Shown one piece after another: positions 5,797-50,254 of a stretch of DNA of 64,000 nt. This stretch comes from Pseudoalteromonas haloplanktis ATCC 14393 (lineage in GTDB: Bacteria > Pseudomonadota > Gammaproteobacteria > Enterobacterales > Alteromonadaceae): assembly GCF_000238355.1 (NCBI RefSeq), contig NZ_AHCA01000010.1:62001-126000 (forward strand), written 5' to 3'. Numbering within the stretch: the stretch's first letter is position 1; each line of letters begins with the position of its first letter. The notes under the pieces were generated by a model. It had not been told where the DNA came from. It saw nothing but the letters and a program-made list of their open reading frames with translations, and did no database searches. The translations under genes were made by a program, and so were the position numbers.

Positions 5797-7422
5797 TTAT
5801 TTTCTTTGGAATTCAGAATTTTTATTCCAAGTAGGCCAAGTTGCTTGCTCTGAAATATCAAAACCAACTTGATAAAATAATTGTAAGTCTTGCACAGCAC
5901 CAGATAAATCCCATTCATCACGGTATCTGTCACATGGTTGATGATAGCAACCACGAAGTACTAAGCTCATACGTTTGCGGTAATTCGCCGTTTCTTCATC
6001 AAGTGCTTCACTGCCGCCGCCCGCATACATGGCTGGAATACCCATATTTGCAAATGCAAAGTGATCTGAGCGGTAGTAACCCCCTGATGACGGCTTAGGA
6101 TCACCTGACACTGTACGACCTTGTGCTTTAGCCGCGACTTCTAAGAGAGTGTCCATTTCAGATTTACCAAGGCCGACAACACTGATATCTTTTACTTTGC
6201 CCAATAAATTTAGGCTGTCCATATTGATATTCGCAACAGTTTTATTTGCTGGTATTACAGGGTTTGCAGCATAATACTTCGAGCCTAATAAGCCTTGCTC
6301 TTCAGCTGTAACAGCTAAAAACGTCATTGAGCGGCTAGGATGCTTAGGTAGACTTGCAAACGCTTCTGCAACTTCAATTAAGCCTGCAGTACCGGTGGCG
6401 TTATCATGTGCGCCATTATATATTTGGTCACCTTTGCGGGTTTTATCTGTGCCTAAGTGATCCCAGTGAGCTGAATAAACAATGTGCTCATCGGCTTTTT
6501 CGCTACCTGGTAAAGTGGCAATAAAGTTATACGAAATAGATTTCTTAATGGTGTTTTTAACAGCCACAGACGCAGTTAGATCACCCATATCAACATGATA
6601 AGCACCTTTAGCGGCATTGGCTTTAGCTGTATCAAAATCTAACCCCGCCTTAGTGAATAACTCTTTTGCAACGTCTGTAGTTACCCAGCCTTCAACAGCA
6701 ACTCTGTCCATGTTGTTATTTTCTTTTTGAAAACCAAACTGCTCACCACTCCATGAATTTTCTACTACAGACCAAGGGTATGATGCTGGCGCAGTTTCAT
6801 GGATAATAATCGCACCTGCAGCGCCTTGACGACTCGCTTCTTCGTATTTGTACGTCCAGCGGCCGTAGTAAGTCATGGCGTCACCAGTAAAAAGCGCAGG
6901 ATCTTTTGTCGCAAAACCTGGATCGTTAACCAGCATAACAACCGTTTTGCCTTTCACATCTAAGCCTTCATAATCGTTCCAGTTATATTCTGGTGCATTT
7001 ACACCATAACCGACAAAAACAAGCTCAGAGTCTTTAATACTTTGTTGTTCACTAATGCGGCTGCTGCCCATTACCATATCTTTCTTATATTGGTAATCTT
7101 TTCCGCCAATATTAAGTACCATATCTGAATCAGCTTCTAGAGAAACTAACGGCACTTCTTGTAAAAAGCTATCACCGTTACCAGGTTGAAAACCAAGTTT
7201 TTTAAATTCTGTTGTTAGATACGCGAGTGTCAGTTCTTCACCTTTAGAAGAAGGCGCACGGCCACCAAATTCATCTGAGGCGAGTACTTTTATATGCTCA
7301 GCTAATTGTTGAGCATTTATCGAATCATAACCTTTGCTAACATCATCAGAGGTAAGACTTGTTGTTGCACATCCTGCAAGTACTGATGTTGCAAGGAGTG
7401 TAAGAGAAAAATAACGTTTCAT
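5797..7422 (-). CDS. M28 family metallopeptidase, lipoprotein
   Basis: This 541-residue protein starts with a lipoprotein signal peptide and lipobox (TSVLAGC, Cys17). A PA-like insertion (around 140-260, GYGVNAPEYNWNDYEG, GKTVVMLVNDPGF) precedes the M28 catalytic core. Zinc and catalytic motifs are visible: YSAHWDHLG, NGAHDNATGTAGLIEVAEA, FLAVTAEEQGLLGS, NINMDSLN and SDHFAFANMGIPAMYAGGG. It is expected to be an outer-membrane-anchored, periplasmic aminopeptidase. Transcribed alone from a divergent promoter region opposite the DUF3025 gene. Aminopeptidase activity is family knowledge; the substrate is unknown. Confidence 0.92.
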   Translation of the reverse strand: MKRYFSLTLLATSVLAGCATTSLTSDDVSKGYDSINAQQLAEHIKVLASDEFGGRAPSSKGEELTLAYLTTEFKKLGFQPGNGDSFLQEVPLVSLEADSDMVLNIGGKDYQYKKDMVMGSSRISEQQSIKDSELVFVGYGVNAPEYNWNDYEGLDVKGKTVVMLVNDPGFATKDPALFTGDAMTYYGRWTYKYEEASRQGAAGAIIIHETAPASYPWSVVENSWSGEQFGFQKENNNMDRVAVEGWVTTDVAKELFTKAGLDFDTAKANAAKGAYHVDMGDLTASVAVKNTIKKSISYNFIATLPGSEKADEHIVYSAHWDHLGTDKTRKGDQIYNGAHDNATGTAGLIEVAEAFASLPKHPSRSMTFLAVTAEEQGLLGSKYYAANPVIPANKTVANINMDSLNLLGKVKDISVVGLGKSEMDTLLEVAAKAQGRTVSGDPKPSSGGYYRSDHFAFANMGIPAMYAGGGSEALDEETANYRKRMSLVLRGCYHQPCDRYRDEWDLSGAVQDLQLFYQVGFDISEQATWPTWNKNSEFQRK

Positions 7423-7530
7423 AGTCGCTCTTTTTTTGTTTTAAGTGTGCTGAGTATAAGAACTTCTATTAAATAGAACCAGTTTTTGCGGTAAACTCCC
7501 CCTAAAATTTCTGTAAAGCTAAAGATACTC

Positions 7531-8340
7531 ATGAAGCGTTTTACTCCCCACGAACAATGGCATAGCGCCAGCTTAGAAAGTGGCGCATTTAACCACTTAA
7601 ATACATTGTTTGCTTTGCAATGTTTACCTGATTGGCCTGCGTGTGCGTGGTTTTCATCCTTTTTAGATGCTAAAAATGCGAACCAGCAAGTTATTCGCTT
7701 TGTGGACGATGCCTGTTTTAGTGAGGAAGAGCGCTACTATGAGCAAATCATTTTTGATACGGGTAAAGTGCCTACGCGCCAGCAAAATTGGCATGATCTA
7801 TTTGGTGGCTTGATTTGGTGTTTGTTTCCGAAAACTAAAGCGTTAATTAATCAACGCCATGTGGAAGAAATTGCTATTCATGGTACAAAGCAGCGCTCAA
7901 AGCACCGTAATGCGCTGACCTTGTTTGATGAATGTGGTGTGGTACTTGCGGTGTGTGATGATGTTTGGCCGCAGTTACTTAAAAATCACCAGTGGCAAGA
8001 CGCATTCGTTAAACACAGAGCATTATGGGGTAAAACTATTACGCCCTTTATGTTTGGTCATGCAAATTACGAAATGCTAACTAAACCGTATATTGGTTTA
8101 ACGGGAAAAGCATTATTTGTAAAAGTGCCAAATGACATATTTTGTAAAGATTTAACCCAGCAGTATCAGTATATTGATCAAACGCTTTATGAGATGATTA
8201 AGCATGATAACTGTTTAAGGGACAACAGCCAGCTTTCACCGTTACCTTTACTGGGGGTGCCTGGTTGGTATGACAACAATAACCCCGAATTTTATAGTAA
8301 TACGGATTACTTTAGACCGAAACGAAGGATACGAACATGA
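7531..8340 (+). CDS. DUF3025 domain protein
   Basis: A 269-residue cytoplasmic protein of the DUF3025 family. The diagnostic stretch NWHDLFGGLIWCLFPKTKA near residues 91-109 and the later FMFGHANYE and PLLGVPGW motifs support this. No function is established for the family. Its TGA overlaps the ATG of the ABC ATPase gene (ATGA), which implies translational coupling with the exporter. Confidence 0.85.
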   Translation: MKRFTPHEQWHSASLESGAFNHLNTLFALQCLPDWPACAWFSSFLDAKNANQQVIRFVDDACFSEEERYYEQIIFDTGKVPTRQQNWHDLFGGLIWCLFPKTKALINQRHVEEIAIHGTKQRSKHRNALTLFDECGVVLAVCDDVWPQLLKNHQWQDAFVKHRALWGKTITPFMFGHANYEMLTKPYIGLTGKALFVKVPNDIFCKDLTQQYQYIDQTLYEMIKHDNCLRDNSQLSPLPLLGVPGWYDNNNPEFYSNTDYFRPKRRIRT

Positions 8341-9125
8341 TAGAAGTATCAGGGCTTAAAAAGAAATTTAAGCTGACTAAAGATCATAAAAAAAATAAGC
8401 TTGATAAAATTGATCCACGCGAAGACAAAGACTATTTTCATTCAGTTACTGATGTTAGCTTCTACTGTGCCCAAGGCGAAGTGCTGGGCTTACTCGGGCC
8501 TAATGGGGCTGGTAAAACCACTACGTTAAGAATGATCTCAACGGCGTTAAAGCCTGATGCTGGAAGCATTCACATCGGTGGTGAAAATATCATTAAAAAT
8601 CCACTGTTTGGCCGTAAATCTATCGGTTTTTTATCGGGCAGTACCGGTTTATATGGCCGTTTGACCGTTAAAGAGAACATTGAATACTTTGCGAAATTGC
8701 ATGGTATGAGCAAAGCCGCTATTAGCTCTCGCTGTGACGAGTTATTTGATTTACTCGATATGCATAGCTTTATTGATAAACGTGCAGAGAACTTATCTAC
8801 CGGAATGAAGCAAAAAGCGAATATCGCGCGTGCTGTTGTCCATCATCCGGCAGTGGTGGTACTGGATGAACCAACCACTGGTTTAGACATTATGACGACA
8901 CAAACCGTGATTAACTTTATCAAAGGATTAAAAGCGCAGGGCACCCCCGTTATTTTCTCAACACATCACTTAGACGAAGTTGCATTATTGTGTGACCGTG
9001 TCGCAGTGATCAACGAAGGAAAAAGTTGCTTTGATGGCAGCCTTGAGGAATTTAAAAAAGTAGGCAAGAGTGACGAATTGAATCAAGCATTTATGAACAT
9101 TCTAACGGAGAAAAGTGATGTTTGA
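8337..9125 (+). CDS. natA: ABC transporter ATP-binding protein, NatA-like
   Basis: This 262-residue ATPase powers the permease encoded next. Walker A is GPNGAGKTT, the signature is LSTGMKQK, Walker B is VVVLDEP, and the switch histidine lies in STHHLDEV. A short charged insertion (residues 10-30, DHKKNKLDKIDPREDKD) interrupts the first strand region, as in NatA-type Na+ exporter ATPases. AAGGAT precedes the ATG. Sodium export is the classical role of the closest named system, but the substrate cannot be proven here. Confidence 0.88.
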   Translation: MIEVSGLKKKFKLTKDHKKNKLDKIDPREDKDYFHSVTDVSFYCAQGEVLGLLGPNGAGKTTTLRMISTALKPDAGSIHIGGENIIKNPLFGRKSIGFLSGSTGLYGRLTVKENIEYFAKLHGMSKAAISSRCDELFDLLDMHSFIDKRAENLSTGMKQKANIARAVVHHPAVVVLDEPTTGLDIMTTQTVINFIKGLKAQGTPVIFSTHHLDEVALLCDRVAVINEGKSCFDGSLEEFKKVGKSDELNQAFMNILTEKSDV

Positions 9126-10326
9126 AGTATTTAAAAAGGAAATAACAGAACTACTGCGAGATAAAAAAACCTTAATTTTTATCGTTGCATTACCCGTTGC
9201 AATTTTTCCGCTGCTATTTGCTGTTATGGCATTTATTAGCTCACAAGCAGCCCTTGAGGCAGAGCAAAAAGTACATACCTACGCCATCATTAATGGTCAA
9301 TATGCGCAGTCATTTACTGATAAAGTGTTTTATCATAAAAGTTTTGAGCTCTATAAAGGTGAACAGACCTTTACAAGCGTTGAAGAGCTTAGCGAAGCAG
9401 TAAAAGCAGGCATTATAGATATGGGGATTTATTTACCTTCGGATGCCAAACAAACGCTAGATGATGCGAAGCAAAGCCAGTGGCAAGTGGTTTATAACGA
9501 TGCCAAAACAATCAATTTTTTATTCGACCGAGTAAAAGAGTTGGCCGAAGAGTTTGGTAATAACTTACGCGCACAGAAATTACTTAGCTATGGTATCGAT
9601 GAGCAGCAGCAACAAGCCATCATTGCACCAATTAAGGTAGTTAAAGTTGATACCGCAGATAAACGCGAGAATTTAGGTGAGAAAATAGGTGGCTTTATTC
9701 CATATTTACTTATTCCATTAGTGTTAATGGGGGCAACTTACCCTGCAATAGACTTAGGCGCGGGTGAAAAAGAACGCGGTACGTTAGAAACGTTACTACT
9801 GACACCAATAACGCGTACGCAACTAGTTTTAGGAAAGTTTATAACTTTGCTGGCAGCGTCAATCGCAACCACCACAATCACCGTGTTGAGTATGGGGATT
9901 TGGATCAGTATAGCGATCACTTTTGTTGATTTAGCTGTTGTTAAAACGGCATTTAGCTCGTTGCGGGTGTTAGATCTTGCTTTAATATTTATAATATTAC
10001 TCCCCGTTGCCGCTATATTTTCGTCCCTTGCATTAGCAATTTCAATTTATGCACGTACATTTAAAGAGGCACAAAATTACATGACTCCGCTCAGCATGGG
10101 GGTGATCTTTCCTATCATAGTGGCACTATTACCTAATATTGAGCTCAATGCTAAAACAGCTTTTATTCCTGTTACGAATGTGGCATTAGCAATCAAAGAA
10201 ATCATCAAAGGTACTATTGATTACACTTTGTTAGGCTTAATTTTCTTAGCTACAGTCGTTGTCGCTGGTGCACTATTGGCATTTTGTGTTAAATGGTTTA
10301 ACAAAGAAGCCGTATTGTTTAGATAG
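9118..10326 (+). CDS. natB: ABC transporter permease, NatB-like
   Basis: A 402-residue ABC-2 type permease. An N-terminal transmembrane segment (about 20-42) is followed by a large extracytoplasmic domain (43-185), then five to six transmembrane segments with GAGEKERGTLETLLLTPITR, a hallmark of NatB/ABC-2 membrane proteins. The ATG at 9118 is preferred over the in-frame GTG at 9115 because GGAG at 9106-9109 is then well spaced. It overlaps the ATPase gene by eight bases. A strong terminator follows. Confidence 0.88.
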   Translation: MFEVFKKEITELLRDKKTLIFIVALPVAIFPLLFAVMAFISSQAALEAEQKVHTYAIINGQYAQSFTDKVFYHKSFELYKGEQTFTSVEELSEAVKAGIIDMGIYLPSDAKQTLDDAKQSQWQVVYNDAKTINFLFDRVKELAEEFGNNLRAQKLLSYGIDEQQQQAIIAPIKVVKVDTADKRENLGEKIGGFIPYLLIPLVLMGATYPAIDLGAGEKERGTLETLLLTPITRTQLVLGKFITLLAASIATTTITVLSMGIWISIAITFVDLAVVKTAFSSLRVLDLALIFIILLPVAAIFSSLALAISIYARTFKEAQNYMTPLSMGVIFPIIVALLPNIELNAKTAFIPVTNVALAIKEIIKGTIDYTLLGLIFLATVVVAGALLAFCVKWFNKEAVLFR

Positions 10327-10552: not shown

Positions 10553-13500
10553 ATGCCAAATAATACCTCCTTTAACCGTTTAGTAAGTGGTAATAAAGTC
10601 TTTCTGATTGCACTATTAGCTTTTTGTATCTTGTTGGTCCCCACTCTTTATATTTTTGAGTTAAAAACGCGAAAAGATGTCTACCAGTTAGCGCATGCTA
10701 ATCTGCAAGAAGAATTAGATACGAAAAGCCACGCATTACGTGAACAGCTGCAAAACAGTATAGCGACAATTAAATTTTTTAATGTGACGCCACCCGTTTC
10801 TGGCATTATGCGTGCCGCCGCTAATAATTCGGTTGATCCTGAGTTAAAAACACCGATGGAGGTGTGGCAAACACGCTTAGCTGAAATATTTACCGGATTT
10901 ATGCAAACTGACGGTTACTTAGCCCAATCACGCTATATTATGCTGGCTGAGCATGGGCAAGAGATTGTCCGCATTGACAGAACCGAGGAGGGGCTAATCC
11001 GACTTACAGACTCTCAATTGCAAAAAAAGGGGCAACGTGATTATGTAATAGAAGCAAGTAAGCTTGATGAGAATTCGGTGTATATTTCTCCGATTAACTA
11101 TAATCGCGAAAACGGCAAAATACAGGTTCCATATGTCAGTACCTACCGTGTTGCAAAACCTGTTTTTGATAGTAATGGGCAAGTCTTTGGTATTCTTGTT
11201 GCTAATTACTTCGCTGAATCACTCATTAACAGCTTAACGTTTAATACGCCTAATGGGATCAACCTGTATTTACTGAATAATAATAATCAATTTTTATATC
11301 ACCCAGAGCCAAACTTACGATTTGCGTTTGAATTTGACCAGACTACAAATTGGTTTGATGAATTCTCAACCACTCAACTCATGAGTCAATATACAGCATT
11401 ACCACTGACTGAACTGCCATCGCAGTATTACCTCAAAAGAGAGATTTCATTTGAGGGGAAAGTTGAAATGTTGCCACTTACATTAGCGGTTTCAATAGAC
11501 ACAGACTATTTACTTAATGAAGTAACACAGCGCAGAGATAACTTTATACTGATAGTTATCGGACTATTTTCAACGCTGTTATTTTTGGTGTGGTTATACC
11601 AGCGTTATATAAATCGTAAATTAGAGTTACATTCACTAAAAGAGCAAAATAATAAAATCATTGAAAATTCACTTGATGCAATTGTTACTGTAAAAGCTAA
11701 TGGCGTGATCTGCCATGCAAACCAAACTGCAAAAACGGATTTTAACTTAGTGGAAGGAAGAGTAGTTTTTAACGAGTTGTTTCAATTAAAAGATAAAGAT
11801 ACATCGTGTATTGCAAACACGATTATTGAAGGGAACAAATCTTCTTTTGAAGGCATATATATAGCAGCCGATAACCAAAAACATTACTATTCAATCACTT
11901 TAACAGCTGTTTTTGATGTGTTTAGCCAGCAAACACAAGTAGCTGCTATATTGAGGAATATTGATTCACTTAAAAAAACACAGGTTGAGCTTAAGAAACT
12001 TAACGAGTCGTTGGAACAAAAGGTAGCCCAGCGCACAGTTGAATTAGAAACTGCAATTGAAGATGCACTCGCAGCAAGCCAAGCTAAAAGTGACTTTGTA
12101 GCAAACATTTCTCATGAAATACGTACACCAATGAATGGTGTGTTAGGCATGTTAGACATGCTAAAAGATGATTCTCTTAATGAAGAACAGCAACATTATC
12201 TAAAGTTAGCTAACAACAGTGCTCATTCTTTGATGACATTAATTAATGATATTTTGGACTTTTCTAAAATTGAAGCGGGTAAACTGGATATTGATAACCA
12301 TAGTTTTGACATTATCACCGTGTGCAGTGACATGATCACATCGATGGCATTACAGGGACAACGTAAAGGCTTAGAAGTCATTCTTAATACCAATAAAGTG
12401 ATTGATCGTTTAGTGGTTGGTGATAGCCATAGGCTGAAACAGATCCTGATAAATCTGTTAAACAATGCGTTTAAGTTCACTCATAAAGGCGAGGTAAGTT
12501 TAAGTTTAGATGTTAATTATCTAACGGATGATAAATTAATTATGAGCTTTGCAGTCACTGATACAGGAATTGGTATTGAAGCTGCGAACCAAGACAAGTT
12601 ATTTGATCTGTTTACCCAAGAAGATACCAGCACGACACGCCATTTTGGGGGAACTGGCTTAGGATTATCTATTTGTAAGAAACTAGCTCAGTTAATGGGA
12701 GGGGACATAACGGTAACAAGTGAGAAAGGGAAAGGCAGTTGTTTTACCGCGTTCGTTGAGTTGCATGTCGCAGCAGAAAAAAAACTTAACACACCGATAG
12801 AGTTAATCAATGATATACAAGTTGGTGTACTGATTGATAAAGACAGTGTGTTTAATAACCTGAGTAATCTACTAGTGAAAAACTGTAACGTTAAAGCCAA
12901 TAATATTCAGCGCTTTGATTACCTTTTACAGCATCATGAGCTGAACGTGGACCTTCTCGTTATTGACAATGAACACCCTGAACTTGATAAGTTGATCGCC
13001 TTGTGTGAGCAGCTAAACAAGAAATACATGCTTATTTTAAGAGACTTATTATTAAATAAGGAAGTTAAAACAAGTTACCCGGAAAACTGTCATGTACTTA
13101 ATAAGCCCTTAACGCAAGATCAGCTGAGTTTTAAATTAGCCAGTCTTTTTGGTACTAGTAAGCGTTTTTTACTGCCCGCGCAAAAGCCATTAAAAACAGA
13201 CGAAGTAGAGATAAACCTCTCACAATTTAATGTACTTCTTGTTGATGATAATATGATCAACCTTGAAGTGGCCAAAGCAATATTAAAAAGGACAGGAGTT
13301 GCTATCACTTGTGCAAGTGATGGTTGTGAAGCCATTGAAACATTAAAATCACAGCAAACTACATCTTTTGATTTGATTTTAATGGACTGCCAAATGCCAA
13401 ACTTAAATGGCTACGATACCACTGCCGCTATTCGTAAGGGGCACGCTGGTACTGCTTACAAGCAGGTTCCCATCATTGCCATGACAGCCAGTGCTATGGC

Positions 13501-13606: not shown

Positions 13607-14104
13607 TTGAGTGGCACTTATATAGTGCATTAGTTAAGCAAAGTAAGTGATTTAACACTCTTACTTTTGGGTTTCTAAACAGAAATTTATTGAAAATTCT
13701 TTTTGACCGTTTTTATAAATGGACGGTCAATTCTAAATCAATAAACAAATTCGTTTATTTCGTCTGTCGATGCGGCTGTTAAGCAAGTAGCTTACGGCAA
13801 ACACATATTGGGATGCTACGCGATAACCTTTATGTTATTAGCGAAGTATTTGTGATATTCCTCTAAAGCGCAGCGTCTCTTAACCTCTTTGTGAATAATT
13901 CACTAAATTTTTTTGCACAAAGAGAAGGGAATGAGAAGTAAATGAGGATTAACTTAAAGGCTAATATGAGCATGCGTAAAACATGATGCATTAATTAGAG
14001 TAAGCCCTTATTACTTCAAATATGCCACTCAAACACCTGTCATACTTTCCAAAACCCCCATTAGAGCAACAGCAAATCCGCTTTTTATATTTTACGTAAA
14101 ATCA
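13607..14104. other. gene-free stretch with inverted repeat
   Basis: No convincing coding region in either strand. TTGACCGT (13703-13710) and ACGGTCAA (13723-13730) form a perfect inverted repeat with a 12-base spacer. GCACT/AGTGC just after the kinase stop makes a weak hairpin without a T run. The rest looks like decayed intergenic DNA. Confidence 0.4.
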
Positions 14105-14195
14105 AAGTAACTAATTGAATCAAAATAGGAACTCGGCTATGGTTAATGCATAAATAAAAATAAATTTTAAACGAGTTATTCTACAGGCTCGTTAG
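14105..14195 (+). repeat. 91-bp dispersed repeat, copy 1
   Basis: This stretch is clearly similar to 49828-49918. The best conserved block is GGAACTCGGCTATGGTTAAT. Both copies end in a hairpin with arms AAACGAG and CTCGTTAG whose loops have diverged while the arms stayed fixed. Here it ends 18 bases upstream of the lipoprotein start. Confidence 0.8.
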
Positions 14196-14213
14196 GTCTA
14201 TAGGAGAGTTTCG

Positions 14214-14843
14214 TTGAAACTTCATTATTTGGTACTTCTTTTTATAATCTTTGTTAGTGGATGTTCATCAGTCCCGAGTGTAAAACTGAAAAAAGAAAAT
14301 TTCGATCAGTTACAAACTATAAAGCTTGAAGCCAGCCCAAACGATAATTCAATGCTAACAGCTATAAGTACGGTTGAAGTTCAATGGACAGGTGTCAGTT
14401 ATTATTATTCTGGAACTGCTAGTGACGGCTTAGGAGTTAGAGAGCTTGCGTTAAAATTTATGAAAGAAAATCATATAAGCTTAAATGAGATCGTGCAGAA
14501 TCAATTCATTGAAAAAGTAAAAGCTGATAACCTTAATATTAACTTTGATAGCAATTCTCAAAATAAGTTAGTGATTACACTTAATGTTGTAGTTTTAGGT
14601 ATGGTTCATGGTTTTTCTGACGAGTTCAATTCTCGCTTTAATATCGCTGCACAGTTATTCGATAGCTCGGGTAAAATCATGTGGTCTTATAATGCGATAC
14701 CAATTTCTCCTGTCGCCCCTGGATACTCAATAAAGCTAAAGGACTTGTTTTTATCAAAAGAATCAATGGTTAAATTTTTAAATGCAGCCTCAGAACCTAT
14801 AGTTCAAAAGCTGTATGACGATTTTAAAAGGGATCTAGTTTAG
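14214..14843 (+). CDS. orphan lipoprotein, unknown function
   Basis: A 209-residue protein not recognised as any named family. The signal peptide and lipobox are clear (LFIIFVSGC, Cys17), so it should be exported and lipidated. The rest is a predicted alpha/beta soluble domain with no recognisable catalytic motif (for example VLGMVHGFSDEFNSRFNIAAQLFDSSGKIMWSY read in segments suggests beta strands). The start is TTG, supported by TAGGAG seven bases upstream. It is AT-rich, flanked on both sides by long gene-free DNA, and preceded by the 91-bp repeat, all of which suggest acquired material. Confidence 0.7.
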   Translation: MKLHYLVLLFIIFVSGCSSVPSVKLKKENFDQLQTIKLEASPNDNSMLTAISTVEVQWTGVSYYYSGTASDGLGVRELALKFMKENHISLNEIVQNQFIEKVKADNLNINFDSNSQNKLVITLNVVVLGMVHGFSDEFNSRFNIAAQLFDSSGKIMWSYNAIPISPVAPGYSIKLKDLFLSKESMVKFLNAASEPIVQKLYDDFKRDLV

Positions 14844-15215
14844 GCCTCACAAAAAACATCATGGTCAGAATTTTATTCGCTGAAAAAATGCTCCTAAAAT
14901 CCCCATATGTTAAGCGTTATCACCGTCTGCTCACAGCACATTAGTAACGGTCAGGCTTGTTTACGTCCTGTTAATCGAATCTGACGGTTTAAGTTAAGGC
15001 TTATTCAGCTAATAATTATTCACCAAACAATGTTCACCTAATAACAAGTGTAAATCGCTGCGTTCAATACAACGCTTTCAATTATCTTTTATTCTTGCCA
15101 CTTCCAAGGTATTTCAACGTATTGTTTTGCCAGTTAATCGAACTAGACTTTTTATTGATCAAAAGGCTGATACACTGGGTATAATAATAGAAATAATAAT
15201 TAATTAGGTGAACTT
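14844..15215. other. gene-free stretch before RND operon
   Basis: No coding region supported. The ten-base word GTTAATCGAA occurs twice in the same orientation (14970-14979 and 15133-15142). TATAAT at 15180-15185, 30 bases upstream of the next gene, is a likely -10, with TTGATC 19 bases further upstream; such a long spacer would suit an activator-dependent promoter. No regulator gene is adjacent. Confidence 0.35.
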
Positions 15216-16232
15216 TTGAAATTTCGCGTGCTTATAACTTGTGTTTATTTTAGTTGTGCTGCGGTTGTACCTTCGGCACTGGCTGCTAATGTACTTGTAG
15301 AACGTGTTGCGATGGAACATGCCAATGAGCAAGTGCAAGCAGTTGGCAATGCAGAAGCTATCCGCTCAGTTATTCTCTATCCGGCTGTGGGTGATAAAGT
15401 GACGGCGGTACATTTTAAACCAGGTGATAAAGTAACTGCGGGTTCGGTGCTTTTAGAACTGGATTCGCGCAGACAAATTGCTGCCTTGAATGAAGCAAAA
15501 ATAAAGCTTGCCGATAGCGAGCGTATTCAAACCCGTTTGCAACAAAGTCATGCTAAAGGAGCGGTACCGCAAAGTGATTTAGACGATGCTAAAACCGTGT
15601 ACGAGTTAGCAAAAGTAGCCGTCACTAAAGCTGAGACTGAGTTACAAGACCGTCAAGTCCGTGCCCCTTTTAGTGGCACAATGGGGTTGACTGATGTTGA
15701 AGTCGGCGACCGCATTACAACACAGACAGCCATAGCAAGTATTGATGATACCCAACAACTCTACATTAATTTTAATGCACCAGAATCCGCAATTAGTATG
15801 CTCAGAAGTAGCGGACAAGTGCGCGTTATTCCATGGCAGGGTAACAAGGCAGTCAATGCTAAGGTTGCTTATCTTGATTCACGTATTGATCCTCAAACCA
15901 GAACGCTGCGGGTAAAAGCAAAATTAGACAATAAAAACGCACAATTTTTACCAGGTATGAGTTTTAGAGTTCATATAGAAATACAAGGTGAGCGCTTTGC
16001 GGCAGTGCCTGAAGCTGCTTTGCTTTGGGGCGCAACAGGTCCATATGTATGGAAAAGTGTTGAGCAAAAAGCCACGCGTGTGGATGTTAAAATTCAGCAA
16101 CGTTTAGCAGGACGTTTATTAGTCTCAGGCCCGTTATATAAAGACGACATTTTGGTGGTTGAAGGGGTGCAACGGCTTCGTCCCGCACAAGCTCTTGAAT
16201 TTGTGCAACCACTTGCAACTGTGCAGGAGTAG
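15216..16232 (+). CDS. RND efflux periplasmic adaptor (MFP)
   Basis: A 338-residue membrane fusion protein with a Sec signal peptide (cleavage expected after SALAA). It shows the lipoyl/barrel-sandwich halves (AVGNAEAIRSVILYPAVGDKV and DRQVRAPFSGTMGLTDVEVG), a short coiled-coil hairpin between them, and the beta-barrel domain. It links an inner-membrane RND pump to an outer-membrane channel. The TTG start is supported by AGGTG at 15206-15210. The pump gene follows after three bases. No outer-membrane factor is encoded nearby. Confidence 0.9.
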   Translation: MKFRVLITCVYFSCAAVVPSALAANVLVERVAMEHANEQVQAVGNAEAIRSVILYPAVGDKVTAVHFKPGDKVTAGSVLLELDSRRQIAALNEAKIKLADSERIQTRLQQSHAKGAVPQSDLDDAKTVYELAKVAVTKAETELQDRQVRAPFSGTMGLTDVEVGDRITTQTAIASIDDTQQLYINFNAPESAISMLRSSGQVRVIPWQGNKAVNAKVAYLDSRIDPQTRTLRVKAKLDNKNAQFLPGMSFRVHIEIQGERFAAVPEAALLWGATGPYVWKSVEQKATRVDVKIQQRLAGRLLVSGPLYKDDILVVEGVQRLRPAQALEFVQPLATVQE

Positions 16233-16235
16233 CAA

Positions 16236-19200
16236 ATGCAATCACCTATGATGCAAGACTTGCCTTCAATGGCAATTCGTCGTCCAGTATTAATAGTCGT
16301 ACTCAATTTATTAATTATAATTGCAGGGATAGCTGCAATCGCGGGTGTTGAGGTACGTGAACTGCCCGATGTTGATACGCCAAGGATCACTGTATCGGCT
16401 TCTTTTCCAGGTGGTTCACCTGAGACGGTTGATACCGAGGTAACCAGTAAACTTGAAGGTGCGGTTGCACGAGTCAGTGGTGTTAAAACTATTCGTGCGC
16501 AGAGTGAAGAAGGCAGCGCACGTATTGTGGTTGAGTTTCGTGCTGGTGTTGATCTTGATGATGCTGCAAATGAAACGCGTGAATCCGTAGCGCGAGTGCA
16601 ACGTGAGTTACCAGAAGAGGTTGAACGAGTCTCGATTATTAAAGCGGATAACGATGCCGAAGCTGTAGTATCGTTAACCGTTTCAAGTGAGTCTTTAGCG
16701 CTTGAGGCTTTGACTGAATTAGTTGAAGTGGATTTGGCCCCACAGTTTTTAACCATTCCAGGTGTTGCTGATGTACGCCTAAATGGTGACCGCAAACGAG
16801 TGTTAAGAGTACGATTAGACCCACTTAAATTAACCAGTTTTAATTTAACAGTACCTGATGTTGCCCAAGTGCTGCGCCAAGCTCCATTTGACGTACCAGC
16901 AGGTAGTTTAAAGTCAGCCGATCAACAGATTATTGTCCGTGCAGATGCTACATCGGTTACAGCAGAGCAGGTAGCAGATATTATTATTCGTGATGGTACG
17001 CGTATTGGCGATATTGCAGCTGTGTATTTTGGCCCTGCGGATCCACGCTCTATGGTACGTTTAAATGGCCAGCCTGTGATTGGTATGGAAGTGATCCGCC
17101 AAGCACAGTCAAACACCATTGAGATATCAGATGAAGTGTTAAGTTTATTAGCGAAAATGCAAACGCGTTTTCCTGAACTAGAATTTACTCTGACATCAGA
17201 TGATGCGCAATTTATTAGAAGCTCAGTTGATGAAGTGATCTCGTCGTTAGTATTAACCGTGTTACTTGTGATAATTACGTTGTGGGTATTTATTGGGTCA
17301 TGGCGCGCGACTTTAGTTCCAGCATTTGCAATTCCGGTTGCTTTGGTTGGTTCACTAGCCTTGATTTGGGCACTGGGCTTTTCAATTAATATACTTACGC
17401 TTTTAGCATTAGTACTTGCAACGGGCTTGATTGTTGATGATGCGATTGTGGTCAGCGAAAACATTCAACGGCAACGTGGTTTAGGGCTTGGTCGACGTGC
17501 AGCTGCAGTTATCGGCACACGGGAAGTCTTTTTTGCCGTTGTGGCCACAACGGCTGTTTTGGCAGCAGTATTTGTCCCTATCGCATTTTTACCCTCAACC
17601 GCTGGGCGACTATTTAGGGAGTTTGGTGGGGTACTTGCAGGTGCTGTGATCATCTCAAGTTTTGTCGCGTTATCTTTGGTTCCTGCATTAACCTCAAAGT
17701 TAAAATTAAAGCAAGGAGGTAAACATCCATTTGCAAAAATAGGTCACTGGCTTGCTAATATTTACACTAAAACCATTCATTGGGTACTTGATCATGCATG
17801 GCTCACTTTTGCTGCGTGCGTATTGATTGCAGCCGGTTCTGGCGCATTGTATGTCAATTTAGATAATGAGTTATTACCATCAGAAGACCGTGGTAAAATT
17901 CGTATCTTTGCCCGTGGTCCCGATGGCGTTGGTTTAAATTTTATGGATCGCCAAGCAATGCAAATGGAAGACATTTTATTACCGTACGTAGAAAGTGGTG
18001 AAATAGAATCTATTTATACGGTCGTAGGGCAATGGGATCCAAATATCGTTTTCATTACAGTGCCATTAAAGCATTGGGACGAGCGTCATTTTACTCAGCA
18101 AGAGATCATTAATAAAATTCGTGCACCACTGGGTAATGTCCCTGGTGCTGCTGGCTATCCTAACGGTTCTAATAGTTTAAATTTACGTGGCCAAGGAGGC
18201 GGAATTGAGCTGGCGTTATTAGGGCAAGATTACTTACAAATTTATAAAGCGGCGCAGCAACTTGCTGCCCAAGTTGAGCAACAAATTCCTGCAATTGATA
18301 ATGTTAGGATTTCATATCAACCTTCACAACCACAGTTACGGGTTAATATAGATAGACGCCGCGCTGATGAGTTAGGTGTTTTGTTGAGTGATATATCAGT
18401 CACTTTGCGTGCTGCTATCAATGGTGATGACATAGCCGATCTAAATATTGGTGACCAATCAGTGCCGATAATGCTGCAATCACAAAATCAAACCATTAAC
18501 GATCCGAGTGATTTAGCTAATCTTTATGTCAGTGCTGCAAATGGGAGACTCGTACCATTGAGTAGTGTGGCCACAATTAGTGAAGAAGGGGTTGCAGCAG
18601 AACTTGAACGTCATGCACAGCGCCGCGCCATTGAATTAGATATGGAATTACCAGAAGACATGAGTATTGCCGAGCTTGTCTCGCAGTTACGTGAAATTGC
18701 TGAGCAAACATTACCAAGTGGCATTAGCTTAGCATTCAAAGGCGAAGCGTTAACGTTTGAAGAAACCTCTAATGAAGTGTTTATTACGTATATATTGGCA
18801 TTTTTAATTGTCTTCTTAGTCTTGGCCGCACAATTTGAAAACGTAAATAGTGCGGTTGTAGTAATGGTCACAGTACCATTTGGCATCACCTCTGCAATCT
18901 TAGCGCTTTACCTGACGGGGACTTCATTGAATATTTACTCACAAATAGGCTTAGTGATGTTAATAGGTTTAATTGCTAAAAATGCGATTCTACTAGTTGA
19001 GTTTGCCGATCAACTACGAGATCAAGGTTTATCAGTTCGCAAAGCCGTTGAGCAAGCGGCATTAGTGCGCTTAAGACCGATCACGATGACTTTAGTATCA
19101 ACCTTGCTCGGTGCATTGCCGTTAATATTATCAACCGGTGCAGGGGCCGAAGCACGCAATGCAATTGGTTGGGTAGTATTTGGTGGGCTATCACTTGCGG

Positions 19201-48451: not shown

Positions 48452-49528
48452 ATGACTCGCGCAAGAAAAAGCTTGATTGATTTATCATCTACATCCTATT
48501 ACCACTTAATAGCTCGTTGTGTCAGACAAGCATACTTGTGTGGTAATGATAAACACACGGGTAAAAACTTTGATCACCGTAGAGAGTGGCTTATAGAGCG
48601 AATAAAGTTATTAAGTAGCGTGTTTGCCATCGAAATCGCAGCCTACGCGATTATGAGCAACCATTACCATCTCGTTGTAAATGTGAATAGGCAACAAGCC
48701 CTTGAGTGGTCTGATGAAGAAGTAATTAAGCGCTGGTATCAACTCTATAATGGTCACATGCTGGTTGACCGTTACTTAAATGGTGAGCAATTAGATAAGT
48801 CTAGGTTACTTTTCTTCAATGAAATTATCTCAAAATGGCGAGAAAGGTTGTATGACATCAGCTGGTATATGAAAAACCTCAATGAATATATAGCCCGCGA
48901 GGCCAATAAAGAAGATAACTGCACCGGAAAGTATTATTCGCTGCCATCCTTGGCACTCACCCTTCGGGCTGCCTAACGGCATTCAAATTTATTCCCTATA
49001 AATTTGTGGGAAGGGCGCTATAAGTCACAAGCGCTATTAGATCAAGCCGCAGTGCTAAGTTGTATGGCGTATGTCGATTTAAATCCTATCAGAGCAAATA
49101 TAGCCGATACACTCGAAGACAGTGATTTCACCTCAATTCAAGAACGTATAGCGCATTTCAAAGCCTTTACCGCAGACGTGATGAAAGCGAATAAGCCCCT
49201 CAAGCAAAAGGATAATATCCAACATGAAAGCCAACCTGCACAGCTAAAGCCATTTGGTGGTAATGACATCAAACATACAATTCCCTTTGCCTTGCTAGAT
49301 TACATTGAATTAGTGGACTGGAGTGGTCGTCACATAGATCCAAAGAAAAAAGGGCATATAAACCACACAGTCCCTAAAGCGCTGCTTACTTTGAATATAG
49401 AAGAAGCGCAATGGCTTGAATCCGTAAAGCGATTTAGACATCAATATTCAAATTTTGCAGGCAGTAAACAACGATTAAAGCAGCATGCGGCAACCAACGA
49501 TGTCAAATGGTATAAAGGGGTAGGTTAG
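48452..49528 (+). pseudogene. REP-associated tyrosine transposase, interrupted
   Basis: A Y1_Tnp (IS200-like, RAYT group) transposase. The HUH motif region is AYAIMSNHYHLVVNV, and later WEGRYKSQALLDQAAVLSCMAYVDLNPIRAN is diagnostic. Codons 1-160 run to CTGK, where a 72-base in-frame insertion brings a TAA at 48974-48976; the same frame resumes at TTG 49004 and continues 174 codons. The catalytic tyrosine lies in the part before the insertion or just around it (DISWYMKNLNEYI), so the first fragment may be partly structured, but the intact protein cannot be made. Without the insertion the frame would be open, so inactivation looks recent. Confidence 0.85.
48932..49003 (+). repeat. REP-like palindromic insertion in transposase gene
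   Basis: Seventy-two bases with no counterpart in RAYT proteins lie between the codons for CTGK and LWEGR. GCTGCCATCC..TTGGCA and CACCCTTCGGGCTGCC are imperfect palindromic pieces typical of REP-type sequences. The length is a multiple of three, and the frame is broken only by an internal TAA. Confidence 0.6.
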
Positions 49529-49827
49529 CACTAAGTTTATCTAGTAATTGAAAAATAATCTCACCTATAAAGTATCCGTCTAGCAAAACTTTACTCTGCT
49601 GTTTAACACCATACCCAAAAATGTAAAACTTATAAATCAACAAATGAAGAAATTGATAGTGTATAAATGCAGGGGGATTAGTCGTTCCTTAGGAGGTTTT
49701 TGATGTTAGACGATAAATAAAATATGCCTGTCCATTTATCTAGTCCGTCCATTTATCTACTCTTACTTGCTGCACTTCAAAAAAATTAAATCACACCAAG
49801 TCTTCTTACTATATTTCAATGAAATAG
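49529..49827. other. gene-free stretch after transposase
   Basis: Contains the right element end at 49726-49733 and a tandem GTCCATTTATCTA-like pair (about 49730-49757). No gene seen. Confidence 0.4.
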
Positions 49828-49918
49828 AAGTAACCGATTGAATCAAAGTAGGAACTCGGCTATGGTTAATGCATCAATAAAAAAATAAATTAAACGAGCC
49901 GTTCTGCAAACTCGTTAG
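49828..49918 (+). repeat. 91-bp dispersed repeat, copy 2
   Basis: Second copy of the element at 14105-14195. It shares GGAACTCGGCTATGGTTAAT and the AAACGAG/CTCGTTAG hairpin arms. It ends 21 bases before the start of an orphan gene, as copy 1 does. Confidence 0.8.
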
Positions 49919-49939: not shown

Positions 49940-50254
49940 ATGGATGGGACCCTAATTAAAGAAAAAATAGTATTAGTTGTGTGTTGGCTCATAGGGTTTC
50001 TATTCTTAATTATCGGTATCTATGATTTCATTTTTAATGATCTTTCATGGTTAGACTTAACTAGTACAATAGCTGTATTTTTAATTTTGGTCGGTACAGG
50101 GCTTGCGCCGAAAATCTATTTTACTCCGTTTAAGCAGATTTTTTCTCCAGCATTTAAACTTCAGGCATTGGTTGATCCTAGAATACAGCAAGGGGTATTA
50201 TCTAGCGGGTTAATACTAGCGTTAGTTTGTATGGTTTGGGGTTGGTTGCTCTGA
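49940..50254 (+). CDS. orphan small membrane protein
   Basis: A 104-residue very hydrophobic protein, not recognised. Three transmembrane segments are likely (about 9-30, 37-54 and 84-103), with a loop containing PFKQIFSPAFKLQALVDPR between the second and third. The ATG is preceded by ATGGAG, a modest ribosome site. It is AT-rich, lies alone, and is preceded by the 91-bp repeat, as is the orphan lipoprotein at 14214. Confidence 0.6.
   Translation: MDGTLIKEKIVLVVCWLIGFLFLIIGIYDFIFNDLSWLDLTSTIAVFLILVGTGLAPKIYFTPFKQIFSPAFKLQALVDPRIQQGVLSSGLILALVCMVWGWLL

Follow-up and report, generated by a model that had tools for sequence, protein, structure and literature searches.

Likely right-end remnants of an attC-targeting IS1182-family insertion sequence, with a putative outward promoter, precede integron-type cassette genes in Pseudoalteromonas haloplanktis

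The window analysed here is a 64,000-nt stretch of the genome of Pseudoalteromonas haloplanktis ATCC 14393 (contig NZ_AHCA01000010.1, positions 62,001 to 126,000), hereafter the source genome. It holds a repeat at two places, 14105-14195 and 49828-49918, and the two copies align closely with each other, as an initial annotation of the sequence had claimed. Each copy is followed by a gene, the reading frames starting 20 and 23 nt after the terminal GTTA, and both genes are AT-rich (GC 0.33 and 0.36, the window having 0.41 and its 46 ORFs of at least 200 aa a median of 0.42), again as first described. The length of 91 bp originally given to the repeat has to be revised, copy 1 being longer, as homology to an intact insertion sequence (IS) spans 13978-14194 there and, in copy 2, 49810-49917. 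The features of both loci are collected in Table 1.

Table 1. Features at the two repeat loci, in window coordinates.
Feature	Position	Strand	Remark
Copy 1, IS right-end remnant	13978..14190	+	77.6% match, intact L191 unit 1644-1860
Copy 1, putative outward promoter	14115..14143	+	TTGAAT 14115-14120, 17-nt spacer, TATGGT 14138-14143
Copy 1, right terminal inverted repeat of the IS	14173..14190	+	GAGTTATTCTACAGGCTC
Copy 1, GTTA cassette core	14191..14194	+	Homology to related species ends here
Cassette gene behind copy 1, 209 aa, lipoprotein-like as read	14214..14843	+	No Pfam/NCBIfam match
Degenerate attC-like site after the copy-1 gene, ..AAGCGTT at its end	14846..14918	+	Alignment to the L224 attC
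RAYT-like Y1 transposase gene, broken	48452..49528	+	ORFs 48452-48976 and 49004-49528
Copy 2, IS right-end remnant	49810..49913	+	77.5% match, intact unit 1753-1860
Copy 2, putative outward promoter	49838..49866	+	TTGAAT 49838-49843, 17-nt spacer, TATGGT 49861-49866
Copy 2, GTTA core	49914..49917	+	
Gene behind copy 2, 104 aa, small membrane-like as read	49940..50254	+	No Pfam/NCBIfam match

From 13815 onward, copy 1 belongs to a mosaic that also occurs in another species. Window 13697-13809 is a different repeat, about 113 bp long, which is 88-96% alike across many genomes of the genus and was also seen by eye after a cassette gene in locus L102, near 11840-11950. A further repeat with a CTCTTTGTG..CACAAAGAG palindrome occupies window 13856-13984 and recurs in L020 (9706, 9908, 10112) and L021 (7440, 7631, 7845); it is often found to the left of the IS end and forms rows with a spacing of about 200 bp.

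The repeat occurs far more often than chance would give: a search with window 14080-14220 found it at 17 places in the source genome. The proposed search of related genomes, made with an 89-bp core (E 1e-5, best 8 candidates per genome), detected it in at least 49 of 108 Pseudoalteromonas genomes. When genome contigs were scanned for exact matches to the core block, 55 stretches came up, 54 from Pseudoalteromonas and one from Motilimonas, and the viral contigs gave no exact match to this block. A profile search of 59 regions (724,100 bases) yielded 95 copies, 17 of them from the source genome, of which 84 entered the repeat alignment and 11 were left out as too partial. Some of the copies are not independent, since two in L018 have 347 bp in common at 97.7%. 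The exact terminus, CTC followed directly by GTTA, is found in 67 of the 95 copies and GTT is in place in 80, and the sequence 3' of GTTA differs between copies.

An ORF of at least 70 aa on the same strand starts within 40 nt of 73 out of 93 copies, at a median of 20 nt, whereas among 5000 control points 4.0% have one that near (median 855 nt); two of the 95 copies had too little downstream sequence to be counted, and the regions, as in the profile search itself, had been picked for holding the repeat. Random placement with no link to downstream genes, which the initial annotation had named as speaking against its reading, is therefore not what the copies show. The genes behind the repeat differ from copy to copy. 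Directly behind one copy, at L018 13968-14502, lies what is presumably a BrnT/BrnA-like toxin-antitoxin pair.

Judged by sequence, the repeat forms the right end of an insertion sequence of the IS1182 family, 1.86 kb long, and the window copies are remnants of it. A complete unit was found in L191 (5577-7436, minus strand, 1860 bp including the terminal GTTA), with both terminal inverted repeats and a single ORF of 512 aa; both ends are also present in 11 other-family copies. The ORF matches NF033551, the IS1182-family transposase, at E 5.8e-78 over positions 34-486 of the 488 in the profile. The score of 262.9 bits is just below the cut-off of 270, this being by far the best family for the transposase, and its matches to PF13751 and PF05598 exceed their cut-offs. 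The inverted left ends that pair with the repeat ends read GAGGCTGTAGAATTACTC. Miniature copies, about 146 bp in length and similar at their ends, also occur; 15 of 46 left ends matched the miniature query best, and the TATGGT block of the repeat is absent from these copies, as judged by eye. Across the wider order, the transposase search was positive in 23 of 394 genomes and 7 of 114 genera. The source genome has no transposase match at E 1e-60 and, within the limits of the search described below, no left end, so that the window copies are regarded as remnants only.

The same comparison recasts the hairpin AACGAG..CTCGTT that had been described in the repeat. The hairpin coincides with the inverted repeat at the IS termini, the IS itself having GAG..CTC at its ends; the loop, said to be divergent, is largely conserved over the copies, copy 2 being the divergent one. 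Folding of the two window copies as single strands, which had been suggested, was unremarkable (DNA z -1.25 and -0.75). Palindromic arms just before gene starts would also be expected of a cis-regulatory RNA leader, such as a riboswitch or an attenuator, but the arms belong to the IS terminus, the downstream genes differ, folding is weak and Rfam, at gathering scores, matches nothing in the window (there were two irrelevant weak matches in L018), which makes a leader of this kind very improbable. We attach just as little probability to the repeat being a REP element moved by a RAYT transposase. RAYT-like genes do lie upstream of the repeat in several genomes, but intact IS copies carry the IS1182-type gene alone, and in L105 (10089-12133) a RAYT-like Y1 transposase gene is found inside an IS1182-type element with both IS ends; this reading was dropped once the intact copies had turned up. 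A relative in L103 is below the cut-offs of NF047646 and PF01797, and a stretch of the source genome (G000:C49:219300-219726) matches the end of the broken gene in the window at 96%.

The insertion site was read from 46 left ends, all from the genus except that in L303; these remained from 51 candidate rows after five had been dropped, which were taken as right ends read backwards. GTT precedes 45 of the 46 and CGTT precedes 42. The 110-nt left flanks fold better than 400 control flanks (median -15.7 vs -8.6 kcal/mol, p 1.9e-18) and their AAC..GTT arms pair better than those of 2000 controls (p 3.9e-12). Single flanks are often weak, since only 23 of the 46 fall under the controls' 5th percentile in folding energy and only 13 exceed the 95th percentile in pairing. 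A simple motif for the start of attC was picked out in 32 flanks, and 27 could be aligned as attC sites (TAACAAG..GGACA..GGCGTT), from which a model with 18 pairs was built. We obtained 20 transposase loci from the wider order and gave 17 of them to the attC model, leaving out L303, which was in the training set, and L309 and L310, whose transposases are 45-46% identical. In 12 of 12 other-family copies (L293-L302, L304, L307), none of them in training, an attC-model match ends at the base before the IS; no left junction was obtained for L305, L306, L308, L311 and L312, which are thus outside this count. Furthermore, GTT lies on both flanks of the IS in all 11 copies with both ends seen. Together, the 12 model junctions and these 11 copies place the IS just 3' of the attC core, with the attC left whole. 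The element is attC-targeting, its insertions being found at attC sites (45 of 46 after GTT, 12 of 12 at a model match).

We propose that the IS inserts directly 3' of the GTT core, the GTT on both flanks representing a 3-bp target duplication. Because insertion would be at the core, the genes behind the repeat would be integron-type cassettes, and because the next cassette begins at the same GTT, the right end of the IS would land about 20 nt before the cassette gene. The same attC has been seen with and without the element: the attC in L224 carries the IS at its GTT (..AAGCGTT followed by GAGG), and its counterpart at window 14846-14918 is unoccupied (..AAGCGTT followed by ATCACC), with 63 of 76 columns alike by our own count on the aligned window site. 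Without an attC-model match at E up to 10, and folding no better than shuffles (z -0.31), this window site is at best a degenerate attC. The copy-1 gene starts at a GTT core and has behind it a site that aligns to attC without a model match; behind the copy-2 gene, which ends at 50254, there was likewise no model match at E up to 10. Elsewhere, related genes stand without the repeat, twice in L249 and once each in L109 and L204. At one L249 junction an attC-model match (2473-2561, E 7e-5) ends 9 nt before the aligned point and in L109 a weak match lies exactly at the junction (9976-10073, E 0.94), while the model matched neither the other L249 junction, which looks like attC by eye, nor that in L204.

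The cassette logic that had been noted in the repeat, with the reservation that a canonical attC was lacking, can now be divided. A canonical attC does occur, on the left side of intact copies, and this side is gone in the window. Likewise, the suggested recombination module stands in so far as the repeat marks a junction with integron-type cassettes behind it, and falls in that the repeat is neither itself the cassette recombination site nor the carrier of the genes. The repeat itself was considered as an attC and rejected: none of 58 model matches overlaps a copy, there is none on either window copy and folding is weak (model from 27 sequences; the window was searched with filters off and 58 other regions with default filters).

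A related species (G067) has the same locus, matching window 7001-10322 at 86.5% and 15102-17497 at 87.8%, as well as the IS end and the mosaic upstream of it (13815-14194) at 88.5%. This last match stops at GTTA, behind which G067 has a 112-aa gene, lipoprotein-like as read, in place of the 209-aa gene of the window. The simplest reading of the two sequences would be an exchange of cassettes at GTT, and this exchange keeps alive an alternative in which the integron integrase uses the GTT of the IS end as a secondary site and cassettes are swapped behind a fixed IS end. We consider this alternative unlikely, as the exchange is seen at one locus only, the repeat folds weakly, and no copy of it has an attC-model match, either in the window or among the 58 matches elsewhere.

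An integrase, for which a search had been advised, does lie near copies of the repeat: one over the cut-off (C55:856868-857794, 495 bits) is 4.6 kb from a copy in the source genome, and an integrase fragment is 6.6 kb from another. Integrases over the cut-off were counted in 45 of 49 repeat-bearing genomes and in 38 of 59 without the repeat (Fisher p 0.001), a tally made by eye in which the repeat calls are lower bounds and the p value takes the genomes as unrelated. A region common to five source-genome loci (L018 5907-6138, L023, L025, L026, L027) was read as attI-like; it lies beside intI in one of the five, with one integrase over the cut-off and one fragment among them. On the reverse strand of L023 (4515-5630), among cassettes near the integrase, there is an ORF which we take to be an IS110-like transposase, and L018 14767-15300 is a perfect 7-bp tandem repeat of the CGAAGCC type (about 530 bp, about 76 units).

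Group II intron 3' remnants adjoin former attC sites as well. In 11 searched loci all 15 boundaries have TAA directly before the junction, as predicted, in the available account, by the TTGT/T target of group IIC-attC introns in R'' (PMC7923331). These boundaries lie behind cassette genes (L018 7054, 9246, 11238, 13424, 14503 and ten more), and different mobile elements seem to occupy both ends of former attC sites. A group II intron end was also tried as the source of the repeat and rejected, genome G005 having at least 22 copies and no intron reverse transcriptase match at E 1e-20.

The best-conserved block of the repeat, TTGAAY-N17-TATGGT, is probably an outward promoter of sigma70-like type; the regulatory leader suggested at the outset is, in this form, likely, judging by sequence conservation. 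Across 84 aligned copies there are no indels in the -35 hexamer or the spacer, three in the -10 hexamer and four in the terminal repeat, compared with 32 in a leader of 26 columns. Mean identity is 0.915 for the -35 hexamer, 0.943 for the spacer, 0.980 for the -10 hexamer, 0.924 for the terminal repeat and 0.833 for the leader, so that within the genus the spacer is as conserved as the hexamers, and under a loose match the 17-nt spacing is kept in 83 of the 84. We also compared 12 IS right ends, 11 of them other-family and leaving out a second, miniature-like match in L294. In 10 of them the two hexamers of the best TTGAAT..TANNGT pair are 17 nt apart; over 200 shuffles the number with this spacer averaged 1.3 and never exceeded 5. 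Among those 10 right ends the hexamers are conserved at 0.92 and 0.88, the spacer at 0.71 and the flanks at 0.63 and 0.71; in the 12-right-end comparison, the flanks are about as conserved as the spacer, which speaks against a promoter, as does the apparent lack of the TATGGT block in the miniature copies. As the motif was chosen after inspection, its conservation is suggestive and no proof.

The source genome retains the element from one side. It has 17 right ends, and no left end was found among the best 8 of 21 candidates scored, although badly decayed ones could escape. A left-end pattern search of this genome gave two matches, one of which is a known right end read backwards; the other lies within an apparent coding sequence, which we take to be cheA-like, and has no attC before it. 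Genomes G005 and G019 have at least 22 right ends each, and at least five and at least three left ends, respectively, counting the full-length type only. Such one-sidedness, judged from these sequences, is as selection for the promoter would give, and merely having a useful gene close on the right would give it equally. It is quite possible, if rather doubtful, that the right ends are neutral debris, persisting only since longer rightward deletions destroy the cassette gene, with the end driving nothing. The gene start is about 20 nt away, hence the right side is protected anyway, and the block could have been conserved for a role in the IS, but indels are absent from the -35 hexamer and the 17-nt spacer of the block, against 32 of 84 copies with indels in the leader next to it.

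Given this evidence, we consider it very likely that an IS1182-family element inserts 3' of the GTT of attC and that its right-end remnants, with a predicted outward promoter, precede cassettes. Insertions in the source genome would have decayed to right-end remnants, the outward sigma70-like promoter of the right end would read into the cassette, and selection on this promoter would keep the right ends. A more tentative reading, which we hold at somewhat below even chances, goes further and sees an IS1182 clade specialised on integrons, which does not disable attC, forms the 5' portion of the following cassette and gives it a promoter. As part of a cassette, the IS could then be moved by the integrase, and hosts that keep the promoter end and shed the rest would arrive at cassette-by-cassette expression from domesticated transposon ends.

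Several known systems bear a likeness to this element, as far as the accessible parts of the respective papers describe them. IS1111-attC elements target attC (Tetu and Holmes 2008; Post and Hall 2009, via PMC11187229, PMC9229058) and resemble the present IS in choosing one end of cassette attC sites. They differ in having a DEDD transposase that is RNA-guided (PMC11187229, PMC9229058), whereas the present IS has an IS1182-family transposase with DDE-type Pfam domains, terminal inverted repeats and GTT on both flanks. IS1272, of the IS1182 family, is described as preferring inverted-repeat or stem-loop targets, which it replaces without target duplication (PMC5678879); the present IS shares the transposase family and differs from that description in that the attC stays whole and GTT is found at both ends. 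Group IIC-attC introns, retroelements which insert into the attC bottom strand at its R'' end according to the same account (PMC7923331), are likewise mobile elements specialised on attC, and their degenerate 3' ends adjoin several copies without being the source of the repeat. IS-borne outward promoters that express cassettes are known (PMC8876359), and the likeness to the case excerpted there is that an IS end gives the downstream gene a promoter, putative in our case; the difference is that here the target preference itself would put a promoter before cassette after cassette. The available part of a Shewanella integron survey records no IS interrupting attC in its set (PMC9229058). The open-licence literature yielded no description of an IS1182-family element located at attC, subscription papers and ISfinder being outside this scope.

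The cassettes of chromosomal integrons often lie at a great distance from the integron promoter, which raises the question of their expression and maintenance. An element that places a promoter-like end before cassettes, and of which many copies are reduced to that end, would offer one directly testable answer. With it, attC-targeting elements gain a further transposase family, and the conserved block together with CTCGTTA provides a tag for cassettes which an attC search misses, as in the window.
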